Below, one piece after another: positions 1,913 to 58,820 of a stretch of 64,000 nucleotides of DNA. Location: positions 1 to 64,000 of the forward strand of contig WRKZ01000002.1 of the NCBI GenBank assembly GCA_009777835.1, read 5' to 3'. The position numbers and the translations under genes are program-made. Each line of letters starts with the position of its first letter. Positions within the stretch are counted from its first letter, which is position 1. The notes under the pieces were generated by a model. That model saw only the letters and a program-made list of their open reading frames with translations, was not told the DNA's origin and did not search any database. This stretch comes from Oscillospiraceae bacterium (GTDB lineage Bacteria; Bacillota; Clostridia; Oscillospirales; Ruminococcaceae).

Positions 1913-2035
1913 AGAGCAAAACAAGAGCCGCAGTGCGACCGGCTCTGCCGGTCGGCAGGCGGCTTGACGAATCAAGAAGCAAAACAAGAGCCGCAGTGCG
2001 ACCGGCTTGACGAGTCAAGAAGCAAAACAATAGCC
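1913..2035 (+). repeat. Tandem copies of hairpin repeat family A (AGCAAAACAAGAGCCGCAGTGCGACCGGCT...GCTTGACGA)
   Basis: AGCAAAACAA occurs three times; unit 1 has outer stem AGCCGC/GCGGCT and inner stem CGACCGGC/GCCGGTCG; unit 2 lacks the inner half. Confidence 0.8.
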
Positions 2036-4304: not shown

Positions 4305-4466
4305 ATGTTCGGAAATAATAATTGCTGCTGGATTATTCTCATTCTGCTCTTCTGTTGCGGCGGATTCGGCGGAAACGGCTGTGGAAACGGTTGCGGATGC
4401 GGCTGTGGAAACGGTTGCGGAAACGGCTGCGGCTGCGGAAACGGTTGTGGAAACAACTGCTGCTAA
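4305..4466 (+). CDS. 53-aa Cys/Gly/Asn-rich small protein (similar in style to clostridial 'high-cysteine HCB' proteins)
   Basis: RBS AAGGAGG then ATG: MFGNNNCCWIILILLFCCGGFGGNGCGNGCGCGCGNGCGNGCGCGNGCGNNCC*. Not in ORF track (too short). Confidence 0.8.
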   Translation: MFGNNNCCWIILILLFCCGGFGGNGCGNGCGCGCGNGCGNGCGCGNGCGNNCC

Positions 4467-6903: not shown

Positions 6904-7452
6904 TTAATCGCCGCCGTCACCTTGAGGGAGAGGGGGATAAGTTCCGAAAATGCGGTTTCTTCCGCGGTCACCTTGAACAGCATCCCAAGCGTCACCGTCC
7001 CACGTAGCCAAATCATGTCCTGTACCGAAGTCCCATGCTACAGCGATAATCGCGCCGCGGTCATCAGTGTAGATGACACCTTCGCCCGCACTCAAACTCG
7101 GAGTTTCGCTGTTGAAAGCTTCCACGTATTCCTCGGTAGCGTCACTGATTTCAGCAGCAGCCCCTGTTGCTTTAGTGATTGTAGCTGTATTTCCGGTAGG
7201 AACACCACCGCTATAAGCCGAAGCCCACGTGTCCCTATTGTTGCTGTCAAACGTGGACATGATTGACGACAACGAGTTATGGATGGTTTTCGCTTCCGAG
7301 TCTGCCGATGAAATACGAGAGTTGGTTACGTAGTTCATCAGAATCGGGATGAGGATTGCCGCTAACACGGCGATGATTGCGATTACCACAATCAGTTCGA
7401 TAAGGGTGAAACCCTTCTTGGCCTTCATGGCCTGTAATTTTCTGATAGTCAT
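6904..7452 (-). CDS. Type IV pilin-like protein (prepilin N-terminal methylation motif)
   Basis: KKGFTLIELIVVIAIIAVLAAILIPIL class III signal; RBS aaggagg. Confidence 0.9.
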   Translation of the reverse strand: MTIRKLQAMKAKKGFTLIELIVVIAIIAVLAAILIPILMNYVTNSRISSADSEAKTIHNSLSSIMSTFDSNNRDTWASAYSGGVPTGNTATITKATGAAAEISDATEEYVEAFNSETPSLSAGEGVIYTDDRGAIIAVAWDFGTGHDLATWDGDAWDAVQGDRGRNRIFGTYPPLPQGDGGD

Positions 7453-7527
7453 GAAAATTACCTCCTTCTTTAGTAATACTAAAATTTTTTATGTTTAACC
7501 TCGCAAGGTTAAATCCGTGATTAGGGT

Positions 7528-7573
7528 GTCAAGCAACCTGCCGTCGGGCAAAGCCCGCCGCGCCGTTGCTCTT
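7528..7573 (-). repeat. Hairpin repeat family A copy
   Basis: Minus strand AAGAGCAACGGCGCGGCGGGCTTTGCCCGACGGCAGGTTGCTTGAC; flanked by direct repeats AAATCCGTGATT(A/G)GG at 7511-7525 and 7582-7596. Confidence 0.75.
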
Positions 7574-7576
7574 CTT

Positions 7577-7750
7577 TCAGCAAATCCGTGATTGGGTTTT
7601 CTGCCATGCCAGAAACTGCTCATCTACATATGCCACATCAACCGGGTCCATAATCGACCGTTGTCGAAGAAGAGCTTCTTCCAGACCGACAACTTTAATA
7701 TCCATATTCTGATGTTTAAGCATTAGTAAATCATGGTACGATGACTTCAA
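7577..7750 (-). CDS. 57-aa small protein, family B, TTG start
   Basis: RBS AAGGAG-6 nt-TTG; MKSSYHDLLMLKHQNMDIKVVGLEEALLRQRSIMDPVDVAYVDEQFLAWQKTQSRIC*; aligns with 7975-8163 and 53611-53802 products. Absent from ORF track. Confidence 0.75.
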   Translation of the reverse strand: MKSSYHDLLMLKHQNMDIKVVGLEEALLRQRSIMDPVDVAYVDEQFLAWQKTQSRIC

Positions 7751-7974: not shown

Positions 7975-8163
7975 TCAATCGTCTTCTAATTCAACCACCA
8001 GTTTTTCGACATAAGCGACTTCTTCCTGTGACATGACTGCTTTTGTCTCTTGTATAGCTTTATTCAAACCTTTGACTGTTATTCCCGCATTTTCCTGTTT
8101 GATTCTCAACAATCTGAAAAGCGAAGAGTTGGTTGAAAGTTTTATTCCGGCACTGTCAGCCAT
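7975..8163 (-). CDS. Small protein, family B
   Basis: MADSAGIKLSTNSSLFRLLRIKQENAGITVKGLNKAIQETKAVMSQEEVAYVEKLVVELEDD; start chosen from the repeated upstream block. Confidence 0.75.
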   Translation of the reverse strand: MADSAGIKLSTNSSLFRLLRIKQENAGITVKGLNKAIQETKAVMSQEEVAYVEKLVVELEDD

Positions 8164-8194
8164 TATCGAATTCATTTCTGTACCTCATGCTACT

Positions 8195-18454: not shown

Positions 18455-19580
18455 GAAAAAATCAAGCAGTGACATTCCCGATGAAAAAGAAAACGACGAA
18501 AATAAACCGTTCTTCCTGTGGGATTATTTGAAAGAACAGTCGGAACTATCTCGGCCGTTGGTTCTTTACGGAACAGGAGACGGTGCCGACAAAATTCTGC
18601 AGGTTATGAAACAATACGGGCTTGAACCCGATTGTTTCACGAAGAGCGGTGATTTAGGCGGATTTAAACCGAATGAGGTTTTCGCGGGTTATGACGTATT
18701 ACCGTTGGATTCGATTGTTAACAAACGGCTCAAAAATGCCGATTTCATCGTGTTGGTCTGTTTCGGTACCGATAAGAGCGATGTGCTGGAAAGACTGTAT
18801 TCCCTGGCAAAAGAGTATGAGGTTTATGTCCCGGACGTTCCGGTGGTCGGCGAAGGCGTTTACACACCGGAATACGTCGAGGAAAACCGCGACAAACTCG
18901 AAAAGGCACGAAAACTCCTCGCCGATGAAAAGTCGAAGGAGGTCTTTGACGGGTGGCTCGAATACCGATTAAGCGGGAAACCGGATATTCTTGAGGGGAT
19001 TTCAAGCGACAAATCGGAAATCTATTCATTGCTTAAACTCAATAACAAGGAATTTTTCGTGGATGCGGGTGCGTTTAAGGGCGATACGGTAAGTGAGTTT
19101 CTGGCGGAAGTCGGCGGGAATTTCGAGAAAATTACCGCGTTTGAGCCGGATGTAAAGAATTACACGTTCATGCGGCGGAAATTCTACGCTTTACCCGGCG
19201 AAAAATTCTGTGCCGTTAATGCGGCGGCATGGGACGAAGACGGAACGCTCGACTTTGCGGCTAAAACCGGGCGAGCGGGGAGTGCTTTTTCCAAAGAGAG
19301 GGTCAAGCAGGTCAAAAGCGCGAAAATCGATACGTTGTGCGGCGAAGACAAACCCACCTTCATAAAATTGGACGTTGAGGGTGCGGAGTCACGGGTTCTT
19401 CAGGGGGCGAAATCAATTATAACCAAACAACGCCCGAAAATGGTGGTTTCCCTGTATCACAGGGTTGAGGATATGTATGAGTTACCGTTACTGATTCATT
19501 CGTATAATCAGCGGTACAAATTCTATTTAAGGAAGACCCGATGTCTCCCGGGGTGGGAATTTCGGTTGATTGTAATTTAA
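18444..19580 (+). CDS. FkbM-family methyltransferase
   Basis: FVDAGAFKGDTVSEFL, AFEPDVKNY, IDTLCGEDKPTFIKLDVEGAESRVLQGAK. Confidence 0.85.
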   Translation: MLNEKKSSSDIPDEKENDENKPFFLWDYLKEQSELSRPLVLYGTGDGADKILQVMKQYGLEPDCFTKSGDLGGFKPNEVFAGYDVLPLDSIVNKRLKNADFIVLVCFGTDKSDVLERLYSLAKEYEVYVPDVPVVGEGVYTPEYVEENRDKLEKARKLLADEKSKEVFDGWLEYRLSGKPDILEGISSDKSEIYSLLKLNNKEFFVDAGAFKGDTVSEFLAEVGGNFEKITAFEPDVKNYTFMRRKFYALPGEKFCAVNAAAWDEDGTLDFAAKTGRAGSAFSKERVKQVKSAKIDTLCGEDKPTFIKLDVEGAESRVLQGAKSIITKQRPKMVVSLYHRVEDMYELPLLIHSYNQRYKFYLRKTRCLPGWEFRLIVI

Positions 19581-19602
19581 TGTAAGAAAGGCATAGTTAT
19601 AA

Positions 19603-19668
19603 GTTTGAATAAGAGCTCACGGGGTCGGCGGCTTCGCCGTCGAGCAGGTGAGCTTGACAGGTTTGAAT
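19603..19668 (+). repeat. Hairpin repeat family A copy (19611-19660) flanked by 8-bp direct repeats GTTTGAAT
   Basis: AAGAGCTCACGGGGTCGGCGGCTTCGCCGTCGAGCAGGTGAGCTTGACAG between GTTTGAAT 19603-19610 and 19661-19668. Confidence 0.8.
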
Positions 19669-19706
19669 TCATGCCACTTTGTGGCAGAAAGGCATGGTCA
19701 TAATAA

Positions 19707-32275: not shown

Positions 32276-34381
32276 ATGAACGAAAATATCAAAAATATTT
32301 CCGAGAATACGGAAACTACCGAGAATCAAGAGAATATCGAGCATTATGCCGATTCTGATGTAGGTGAAATTCAAGATATATCCGAACCTATGGAATATTC
32401 CCGCATGGAAGGTGATTACGGTGCGGGAAATATTGAAATTCTTGAGGGGTTGGAGGCTGTTCGTAAACGGCCTGCAATGTATATCGGAACCACCGGCCCG
32501 AAAGGACTTCATCATCTTGTAAATGAAATCGTGGATAATGCGATTGATGAAGCTTTAGCAGGTCATTGTACAGAAATCAGCGTGAAAATTCTCCCCGGGA
32601 ATGTGATTGAAATTTCCGATAACGGTAGGGGAATCCCGGTGGGAATTCACCCGAAAGAAGGTATTTCTGCCGCAACGGTGGTTTATACGATTCTTCATGC
32701 AGGGGGAAAATTCGGTGCGGGTGGCGGTTACAAAGTTTCGGGGGGACTCCACGGAGTAGGTGCATCGGTGGTGAATGCACTTTCGGAATGGCTTGAATTA
32801 GAAGTCTGTAACGGAAAAAATATTTATTATCAAAAGTTTTCTAACGGGGGAAACTATGATGAACCCCTTAAAATTATAGGTGAGACCGAAAAGACCGGAA
32901 CAAAAGTTCGGTTTAAAGCGGATAAATCTATCTTCCAGAGCGTAGAATATGATTATTCGATTGTGCGTGAACGTATGAGGGAACAAGCGTTCTTGAATGC
33001 GGGATTGATTTTTAATACCGCCGATTTGCGTAATGAATCCGAACCGAAAGAGCATAAGTTCTCATATGAGGGCGGAATAATCAGCTATATTGAATGGCTG
33101 CAGAAAAAGCGGGGCGCGGAAGTTCTGCATAAAGACGTGATTTATTTCAACGGATTAATTGATGATATAACGGTGGAAATTGCTTTCCAGTATAATAATG
33201 ATTTCAATTCTGAGACTATTCGTTCTTTCGCCAACAATATTCACACGATTGAAGGCGGAACGCATGAAATCGCTTTTCGGCGCGCAATCAGCAAAGTCGT
33301 TAATGATTTCGTGAAAAAGCACAGGGAAGAAGAAGCCAAGAAGCCCGGCAAAGTCAAAACCAAGAAAAAAGCAACGGGTGAGCCGGAACAATATCAAAAT
33401 ATATCGGGTGAAGCTATTCGTGAAGCTATTAATGCAGTAATCAGCGTGAAATTGCCCGAGACTGAGTTTGAGGGTCAGACTAAAGCTAAACTCGGCAATC
33501 CGGAAGTAGGGCCGGTGGTTTATAAAGTAGTCACCGAAAGATTAACGTATTATTTGGAAGAAAATCCCGAGACAACGGCGATTATAGTCAATAAAGCGAT
33601 TAATTCCCAGGCTGCGCGAGATGCGGCACGTAAAGCGTTGGAAGCTAAACGTAAATCTGTATCGGACGGGGTAGGACTTCCCGGTAAACTTGCCGATTGT
33701 TACGAAAAAGATGTTACTAAGACTGAAATCTACATCGTCGAAGGAGATTCGGCGGGGGGAAGCGCGAAACAAGGAAGGGACAGTGCGTTCCAGGCGATTC
33801 TTCCTTTATGGGGGAAAATGCTCAACGTAGAAAAGGCGAGGATTGACAGGGTACTCGGCAATGAAAAGCTTATTCCGGTAGTCAAGGCATTAGGGACAGG
33901 TGTAGGTGAAGAATTCAATCTGGAGAAACTCCGTTACGGGAGAATTGTTATAATGGCGGATGCCGATGTTGACGGTTCTCACATCAGAACTTTGTTGTTG
34001 ACTTTCTTTTTCCGATTTATGCGTCCGTTGGTTGAGGAAGGAAAAATATTTATAGCTCAACCGCCGTTGTTCAAGGTATATAGAGGAAAAAAATTCAAGT
34101 ATGCTTTCACCGAAGAAGAGAGGGAGACATACATTAAGGAATTAGCCGGGGAAAACAATGCTAAAGTCGATGTTCAGCGGTACAAAGGTCTCGGAGAAAT
34201 GAATGCCGACCAATTATGGGAAACCACTATGGACCCGGCAACTCGTACCATGAAACGCGTCGAAATTGATGATGCGGCAAGTGCGGATGAAATTTTCTCT
34301 ATTTTAATGGGTGACAAAGTAGAACCCAGACGTAATTTTATAGAACAGAACGCTAAACTGGTAGTTAATCTTGATGTGTGA
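32276..34381 (+). CDS. gyrB: DNA gyrase subunit B
   Basis: EGLEAVRKRPAMYIGTTGPKGLHHLVNEIVDNAIDEALAG, EGDSAGGSAKQGRD, MADADVDGSHIRTLLLTF. Confidence 0.97.
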   Translation: MNENIKNISENTETTENQENIEHYADSDVGEIQDISEPMEYSRMEGDYGAGNIEILEGLEAVRKRPAMYIGTTGPKGLHHLVNEIVDNAIDEALAGHCTEISVKILPGNVIEISDNGRGIPVGIHPKEGISAATVVYTILHAGGKFGAGGGYKVSGGLHGVGASVVNALSEWLELEVCNGKNIYYQKFSNGGNYDEPLKIIGETEKTGTKVRFKADKSIFQSVEYDYSIVRERMREQAFLNAGLIFNTADLRNESEPKEHKFSYEGGIISYIEWLQKKRGAEVLHKDVIYFNGLIDDITVEIAFQYNNDFNSETIRSFANNIHTIEGGTHEIAFRRAISKVVNDFVKKHREEEAKKPGKVKTKKKATGEPEQYQNISGEAIREAINAVISVKLPETEFEGQTKAKLGNPEVGPVVYKVVTERLTYYLEENPETTAIIVNKAINSQAARDAARKALEAKRKSVSDGVGLPGKLADCYEKDVTKTEIYIVEGDSAGGSAKQGRDSAFQAILPLWGKMLNVEKARIDRVLGNEKLIPVVKALGTGVGEEFNLEKLRYGRIVIMADADVDGSHIRTLLLTFFFRFMRPLVEEGKIFIAQPPLFKVYRGKKFKYAFTEEERETYIKELAGENNAKVDVQRYKGLGEMNADQLWETTMDPATRTMKRVEIDDAASADEIFSILMGDKVEPRRNFIEQNAKLVVNLDV

Positions 34382-34426
34382 GTGGCTTTGCCGTGAGTGT
34401 CAAAACTTTCGTTGCGGAGCAATAGA
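34380..34426 (+). repeat. Repeat family B (GGCTTTGCCGTGAG variant) directly after gyrB
   Basis: GGCTTTGCCGTGAGTGTCAAAACTTTCGTTGCGGAGCAATA, near-identical to 58620-58661 within rsmG. Confidence 0.8.
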
Positions 34427-34438
34427 AGAGGAAATTTG

Positions 34439-39171: not shown

Positions 39172-39710
39172 TATTTGCAAAACAAGCAAAACAAGGGCGA
39201 CGAAGTCGCTTGACGAAATTTGTAAAAAAAAGCATAGACAACAGGAAGAAGCTGCTTATTATTCTGGTTTGCATTTCTTTTGTCTCGGGGATTTCGGCAT
39301 TTTTGCTCCAATTTTTTTTAGGAGGCTCAACAATTTACCGTGCTGAATTGTTTATAGAAGTAGTAGACGATGTAAATCCGACGATTTTGATTAACACGGC
39401 GGGTATGCGGGTAGAAGTCGTTCCGTGGGACGGAGAGACCGTTAAAATTGAGTGTGTGTCGGAATTACCGCTTATAATTGAAGACATCACCGAAGAGTCA
39501 AATCAGGGATTAATCAAAAATCAGACGGTGACAATCAGCCAGGATGACGGATTCGTTGTTTCGCTGTTCACGACCGAGTTGTTTCGCTACAGGATGAAGG
39601 TTTACCTGCCGCAATCCCGCGTGTACAAGGAAATAACCGTGAATTCTTCGGTTGCAAACACGAATGTTTACGTAGACGAATTACTTCAAATACAGGAGGT
39701 GAGAATATAA
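39168..39710 (+). CDS. Membrane-anchored hypothetical protein (DUF4097/adhesin-like)
   Basis: TM then beta-rich ILINTAGMRVEVVPWDGETVKIEC. Confidence 0.6.
   Translation: MIFAKQAKQGRRSRLTKFVKKSIDNRKKLLIILVCISFVSGISAFLLQFFLGGSTIYRAELFIEVVDDVNPTILINTAGMRVEVVPWDGETVKIECVSELPLIIEDITEESNQGLIKNQTVTISQDDGFVVSLFTTELFRYRMKVYLPQSRVYKEITVNSSVANTNVYVDELLQIQEVRI
39173..39232 (+). repeat. Repeat family A short copy inside the 5' end of a CDS
   Basis: AGCAAAACAAGGGCGACGAAGTCGCTTGACGA; compare 1978-2012; near-repeat flanks ATTTGCAAAACAAGC / ATTTGTAAAAAAAAGC. Confidence 0.65.
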
Positions 39711-58118: not shown

Positions 58119-58820
58119 TTATTCCATAGGATTCTTTGTAAGGTTTACCCGTCTTCTCGGATAATTTGTCGGAGTTTGGCGGGCTTTTCGTATTATTACG
58201 AGGTTTCGTGAATCTCCCGACGGAAGCGTGTACTCGATTACGTCCTCGATTTCCCCGCCGAGTGTGGTGAGGGCGGTCGCGGCGCGATGGGTTTCGCAGT
58301 CTCCGCCTTTCATAGCAAGGAACAATCCGCCGACCTTCGCGAACGGCAGACAGTATTCGCATAAGGCGGGCAGATTCGCTACGGCGCGCGCCGCGACTAT
58401 GTCGTACTTCTCGCGGTAAACAGGGGAATGTGATAACTCTTCGCTTCTGCCGGTTATGACTTCTGCATCAACCGCGATTTTGTTCAGCAGGAGTTTCAGA
58501 TAATCGGTTCGCTTTTGGGAGGAATCCAGCAGAGTCACCGATAAATCCGGGCGGAACAGTTTCATGGGGATACCGGGAAATCCCGCACCGCTGCCTACGT
58601 CTATGAGTGAAGTTCGAGCGGCTTTGCCGTGAGGGTCAAGACTTTTGTTGCGGAGTAATATAAACGGCAGAATCGAGTCGATGTAGTGCTTCTCGATGAC
58701 TTCTTGCGGTTCGGTTATACGGGTGAGGTTGGTGTGGCGGTTGTAGTCCAGCATGAAGCAGGTGAGGGTGTTCAGGAGCGTTTCGTTGCTTTTCAGAAAC
58801 GCTTCGATTATTTCATTCAC
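58119..58820 (-). CDS. rsmG: 16S rRNA (guanine527-N7)-methyltransferase
   Basis: IEKHYIDSILP, LIDVGSGAGFPGIPMKLFRPDL, YDIVAARAVANLP. Confidence 0.95.
   Translation of the reverse strand: MNEIIEAFLKSNETLLNTLTCFMLDYNRHTNLTRITEPQEVIEKHYIDSILPFILLRNKSLDPHGKAARTSLIDVGSGAGFPGIPMKLFRPDLSVTLLDSSQKRTDYLKLLLNKIAVDAEVITGRSEELSHSPVYREKYDIVAARAVANLPALCEYCLPFAKVGGLFLAMKGGDCETHRAATALTTLGGEIEDVIEYTLPSGDSRNLVIIRKARQTPTNYPRRRVNLTKNPME
58612..58664 (-). repeat. Repeat family B copy inside rsmG
   Basis: GGCTTTGCCGTGAGGGTCAAGACTTTTGTTGCGGAGTAATA; encodes LLRNKSLDPHGKAARTS. Confidence 0.75.

Follow-up and report, generated by a model that had tools for sequence, protein, structure and literature searches.

The element and its direct repeats

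In a draft Oscillospiraceae genome, a small hairpin lies at the 3' end of a 57-aa gene, between two nearly identical copies of that gene's last codons. Is this hairpin a mobile element that duplicated its target upon insertion, and what could have moved it? We analysed the locus within a stretch of 64,000 nucleotides (here called the window; contig WRKZ01000002.1, positions 1 to 64,000). The original prediction of a hairpin repeat at 7511-7597 on the minus strand was confirmed by direct reading, and the locus is laid out as follows:

7577..7750, minus strand: 57-aa gene, the end of which is duplicated; by eye, it resembles the 66-aa ORF at 7975-8175
7582..7597, minus strand: putative target duplication, upstream copy ACCCAATCACGGATTT, the last codons of the 57-aa gene
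7528..7581, minus strand: palindromic element belonging to a dispersed family, matched by the family model at 7528-7580 with 64.8 bits
7511..7527, minus strand: putative target duplication, downstream copy ACCCTAATCACGGATTT, joined to the pilin leader
7494..7513, minus strand: small dyad TTTAACC..GGTTAAA in the pilin leader, beside the insertion point and kept in relatives
6904..7452, minus strand: pilin-like gene with an N_methyl match (PF07963), downstream of the element

On the minus strand, the order is ACCCAATCACGGATTT (7597-7582), the element and ACCCTAATCACGGATTT (7527-7511). The element itself, GCTGAAAG-AAGAGCAACGGCGCGGCGGGCTTTGCCCGACGGCAGGTTGCTTGAC (7581-7528, 54 nt by direct reading), is a two-part hairpin of 53/54 nt, and its left end GCTGAAAG was set by comparison with the empty-site loci described below. 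Its fold combines an outer stem, AGCAAC/GTTGCT, with a GC-rich inner hairpin whose loop has 3 nt, and it is stable both as RNA (−22.7 kcal/mol, z −2.6) and as DNA (z −4.5). The near-identical flanking repeats had been given as 15 bp. They are present, with 14 of 15 positions matching, but they in fact begin two bases before that, directly at the element end, and they are best read as ACCC(T)AATCACGGATTT (16/17 nt). Exact copies of AATCACGGATTT number two in the window, and at most one mismatch is found at six places, a count reached by none of 100 shuffles; in the whole 1.74-Mb genome, it occurs only four times.

In the frame of the 57-aa gene, the downstream copy reads CGG ATT TAA versus CGG ATT TGC TGA in the upstream copy. 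Judged from these codons, the change would be consistent with an insertion within the stop codon. The 57-aa gene has no match in Pfam or PHROGs. The pilin leader motif GGATTTAACC..GGTTAAACATAAAAA is retained in relatives, as is the dyad at 7494-7513, and neither has an Rfam match. No Rfam match in the window reached the gathering level, and the weak matches at seven loci lay only outside the element. Elsewhere in the window, a small ORF of 53 aa (4305-4466) has many glycine, cysteine, and asparagine repeats.

A dispersed family with covarying stems

The family was searched with a right-arm pattern and then with a covariance model built from 33 copies. At least 94 matches were found in this genome (G000). 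The window holds five of them, namely the element above and the following copies:

1916..1968, plus strand: another full family copy (77.1 bits; z −4.2)
1979..2011, plus strand: second copy, in tandem with 1916..1968, with the inner hairpin missing (model match)
19604..19658, plus strand: copy of the TCAC subtype within a longer composite repeat ending ...GGCATGGTCATAA (model match)
39186..39214, plus strand: copy reduced to the outer stem, with a diverged flanking repeat (model match)

Compared with the copy at 1916-1968, the outer stem of the element is changed on both sides (AGCAAC/GTTGCT versus AGCCGC/GCGGCT), as had been predicted, and covariation statistics bear out that structure is kept while the stem sequence varies. 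Both-sided stem changes amount to 81 cells versus 31 in shuffles, and the stem covariation score is 0.366 versus 0.147; neither value was reached in 500 shuffles, an excess that can also stem from common descent in related sequences. The signal is lost when the partners are slid by one to three columns. In the outer and in the inner stem alike, the two sides change together, while hardly any variation is seen in the unpaired motifs AAGAG, GCAG, and CTTGA. The family alignment runs from GCAAAAC to TTGAC and comprises stems of 6 and 8 bp with an internal loop and a terminal loop of 3 nt; a CCA tail is absent.

Four congeners also carry the family (G003, 47 matches; G006, 73; G041, 73; G047, 30), G020 has a single weak match, and the other 54 of the 60 congeners sampled have none. 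In a sample of 299 genomes from 126 genera of the same taxonomic family, only G000 matched and the 298 others did not, under stricter filters that may lose weak copies. Hence, judged by these searches, the repeat seems to be confined to a single lineage. By GyrA, the named relatives nearest to this genome are MAGs assigned to Oscillospiraceae, with 72-83% identity for the first five, and their isolate names presumably denote termite-gut samples. The named gyrA loci (500 kb) contain no model-detected copies, which is uninformative at such a copy density. Downstream of gyrA, the five nearest named relatives differ, and no direct empty allele was found there.

Two other repeats were seen. A second dispersed repeat family, GTGGCTTTGCCGTGAG..TCAAGACTTTCGTTGCGGAGTAATA, lies at 34372-34427 and 58608-58663 of the window, with related sequence at six loci (L002, L006, L007, L009, L038, and L039); at L038 and L039, a copy of the 53-nt palindromic family is nested inside it. 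The hairpin also forms part of a longer composite repeat, which ends ..GGCAGAAAGGCATGGTCATAA or a variant thereof and was seen at 19580-19705 of the window and at L117-L129 and L140-L144. This composite repeat often stands directly before a start codon and is abundant in G006.

Filled and empty sites

Orthologous loci that lack the element had been proposed as a check. A single pilin leader with CGGATTTAAC/GGATTTAACC and without the element is present in G006, G047, and G041, and the more distant G022 and G025 likewise have the leader once and no element. CGGATTTAAC, which is part of the downstream duplication copy, occurs once in the relatives. Upstream synteny is partial and best in G041, which alone among the relatives without the element at this site keeps an upstream gene resembling a window gene (a 58-aa gene, by eye). 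The pre-insertion junction of the 57-aa gene with the pilin leader, on the other hand, was found in no relative, and a scan of all 71 genus genomes for an empty allele of this site gave pilin-leader and element matches only. As this junction was not seen in the relatives, we infer the duplication at 7511-7597 from its likeness to the proven loci below, and the evidence at this exact locus is weaker than at those.

rpe: At the 3' end of this gene, G006 has the target GCATTCATTTTTTCGACAGC once and no element.

recJ: A 20-aa in-frame insert is missing from G006 and G047.

hisH/hisA: At this junction, G003, G047, and G041 have the hisH end and the hisA start once.

aspS: Two 20-aa units are missing in G047, G003, G041, and G025.

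G006 methyltransferase gene: Two 57-bp inserts are present versus none in its paralogue. One of them consists of the 53-bp element and a 4-bp AAAA duplication.

G006 kinase gene (PfkB-like): The insert is present in this gene, and two paralogues are without it.

gatB and iorB: The relatives have single starts, but the upstream regions are unalignable.

The insertions within genes, including those in aspartyl-tRNA synthetase and RecJ, keep the frame, and some loci of the family display tandem growth. An old hairpin that never moved, with a local tandem duplication or a chance repeat around it, would suit the many loci without a duplication and the common arrays. It is contradicted at six loci by empty sites in sister genomes and same-genome paralogues, and we hold it to be the least probable of the explanations considered here.

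Target duplications across the family

The claim that insertion duplicated the target is upheld at other loci by the filled and empty sites, and family-wide by flanking duplications far above chance. A flank-match score of at least 14 was found at 8 of 75 non-composite loci versus 0.28 expected from swapped flanks, and repeats abutting both element ends reached a score of at least 10 in 13 cases versus 2.0 expected (p 3e-4); these hits include array units and composite repeats and are not all independent. New insertions of this dispersed family duplicate the adjoining target over 4 to ~60 bp, and the duplicated stretch often extends across a gene end or start. Clear duplications lie at the starts of gatB (45 bp, exact), hisA (~47), iorB (~25), and proB (15), and further ones at the rpe end (~30), in recJ (~15), and at the present site (16/17). 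Another clear duplication, of ~28, was read by eye at L137, which is outside the 75 loci. At about 80% of the loci, a duplication is not recognisable; this may reflect age, or the duplication may not be obligatory.

The longest duplications reach ~60 bp when the diverged stretch beside the element is counted. The stretch that separates TTGAC from the exact repeat could be taken for a spacer in its own right; we rejected this, as alignment at seven hand-chosen loci suggests that, for the most part, it continues the duplication in diverged form. At these loci, a relation between this stretch and the target is supported (p ~0.003).

Position relative to genes

Between gene pairs of the same direction, the element has the orientation of the genes in 47 cases and the opposite one in 10 (ORF-based counts, with some overlapping loci). 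As read from the table of loci, many copies appear to start ~15 nt or less from the upstream stop codon, and such placement beside genes has been described for REPs (PMC3733652).

Seven loci, picked for having the strongest repeats, all show a distance between the repeat copies of 2 modulo 3. Four of the seven are gene starts, where the stop of a short leader ORF overlaps the second ATG. As insertions within genes are 0 modulo 3, the spacing is read as selection for translational coupling. At L018, L025, L035, and L043, the shortened first copy reads through the element and its TGA overlaps the second ATG (4/4); from these reading frames, translational coupling appears to be kept.

How the element may move

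The element at 7528..7581 is probably a non-autonomous mobile palindromic repeat, inserted with duplication of its target by an activity that acts in trans and is of neither the Y1 nor the RAYT type. It would be folded as a single strand and recognised via its fixed unpaired motifs. Opening of the target with a stagger that varies in length would be followed by joining of the element, and filling of the gaps would produce the duplication. Insertions would survive where the duplication or the frame keeps both neighbouring genes intact; here, the point of insertion would have been the stop codon that ends the 57-aa gene. The fixed ends and the invariant unpaired motifs argue for specific recognition, and a DDE transposase is disfavoured by the variation in duplication length. 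A MITE of a DDE transposon is expected to have a duplication of fixed length, and the length differs between loci here.

The search for candidate agents covered two protein families, PF01797 and PF00078. A RAYT or IS200-type Y1 transposase, which the original prediction had suggested as an agent in trans, would suit a REP-like hairpin with fixed unpaired motifs. This suggestion fared poorly: PF01797 is unmatched in the five element-bearing genomes G000, G003, G006, G041, and G047 (drafts, so that absence is not absolute) and present in two other congeners, G014 and G019, which are both without the family. Target duplications, moreover, are not known from IS200/IS605 elements. We consider mobilisation by such an enzyme very improbable.

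Target-primed reverse transcription of a hairpin RNA would create variable target duplications in the manner of SINEs. It would agree with the span of 4 to ~60 bp, with the element lying mostly in the sense direction of transcription, and with the 3'-truncation of the trailing copies. However, a PF00078 (RVT_1) gene was found only in G000 and in none of G003, G006, G041, and G047, several of which are incomplete, and the array spacers hold host target sequence, which an element RNA would not supply; this route is improbable. The contig C11 of G000 carries a solitary reverse transcriptase ORF (L230, 379 aa) between ORFs that by eye are ThiF-like and serine recombinase-like.

The arrays carry further information. 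Many end in trailing partial left ends, and in some, different subtypes share one spacer, with identical locus spacers at L019 and L013 and 16 of 17 bases at L026. Chimeric copies joined in the GGCTTCGCC loop occur at L022 and L015. The trailing ends and shared-spacer subtypes are not explained by simple insertion, and the mixed-subtype arrays together with the chimeric copies suggest that template switching or conversion took part at some point. In replication template switching, which is enzyme-free, a stalled nascent strand would jump to an ectopic element copy at a short shared sequence (GCAAA), be extended on it, and return upstream of where it left, so that the target is copied twice, and repeated loops would build arrays. 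Besides these arrays and chimeras, such switching would account for the varying duplication length, the short sequence that some targets share at their left end (AspRS and insert 1 of the methyltransferase gene), the relatedness of the diverged segment to the target, and the lack of a PF01797 transposase in the five genomes. On the other hand, clean insertions (53 bp) have nearly constant element ends and the unpaired motifs do not vary, which suggests specific recognition; a downstream return, giving deletions, should be no harder; and the mixing of subtypes could also come from gene conversion that follows tandem growth. We rank insertion by an activity in trans first and enzyme-free template switching second, as a tentative alternative. 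Somewhat more doubtful still is its full form, in which the palindrome spreads with no dedicated enzyme at all, each ectopic switch duplicates 4 to ~60 bp, and loops build arrays from different donor subtypes.

Relation to known palindromic repeats

The closest known kinds are the REP/RPE palindromes and the YPAL elements, from which the family is set apart by clade, structure, and duplication range.

YPAL/RU-2: Like the present family, these are short palindromes with variable target duplications (3-26 bp), filled and empty sites, and co-translation with genes (PMC2229807). The duplications found here vary from 4 to ~60 bp, also with filled and empty sites. The targets of YPAL/RU-2 span or adjoin dyads (PMC2229807), and a dyad lies beside the insertion point here too. 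Compared by description, YPAL/RU-2 elements are ~168 bp and enterobacterial, whereas ours are 53 bp, from Oscillospiraceae, with duplications to ~60 bp.

RPE: These palindromes lie in frame inside conserved protein genes (PMC3733652, PMC2229807), as do the insertions in recJ, aspS, the methyltransferase gene, and the PfkB-like kinase gene. By description, the original class is 105-146 bp long and from a different phylum, and its target duplication is marked unknown (PMC2229807).

CGTC-tagged REPs: These also lie in genes and beside gene 3' ends. They have no dedicated transposase; of the two protein families searched here, PF01797 was unmatched and PF00078 was confined to G000. On the other strand, one end of the present family reads GTC, often CGTC, of which only GTC is regular. 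CGTC-tagged REPs have a single 8-9 bp stem (A and T pairs first), a 4-5 bp loop, a CCA tail, and head-to-head dimers, whereas the present family has two stems, an internal loop, a 3-nt loop, and head-to-tail arrays; this structure of tag, stem, loop, and CCA tail was not found here. The survey of these REPs covered five phyla without Firmicutes.

GTAG REPs with RAYT: The likeness is in high-copy hairpins with fixed unpaired motifs. The ends here are GCAAAAC..TTGAC with no unpaired GTAG, and no RAYT gene (PF01797) was found in the five draft genomes.

Target duplications of variable length were thus already known from YPAL (PMC2229807), and palindromes inserted in frame from RPE. New is an Oscillospiraceae family that has both variable duplications up to ~60 bp and in-frame insertion, with filled/empty pairs. 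How transposase-free REP-like and RPE-like palindromes move, a question left open for the CGTC REPs (PMC3733652), could be approached with this family. In a few related genomes, it has recent insertions with clean empty sites, several of them within conserved genes, which would allow measurement of the element ends and of the duplication and show whether any enzyme is required. As read from the gene sequences, protein-coding palindromes appear to occur in Oscillospiraceae, within RecJ and aspartyl-tRNA synthetase.
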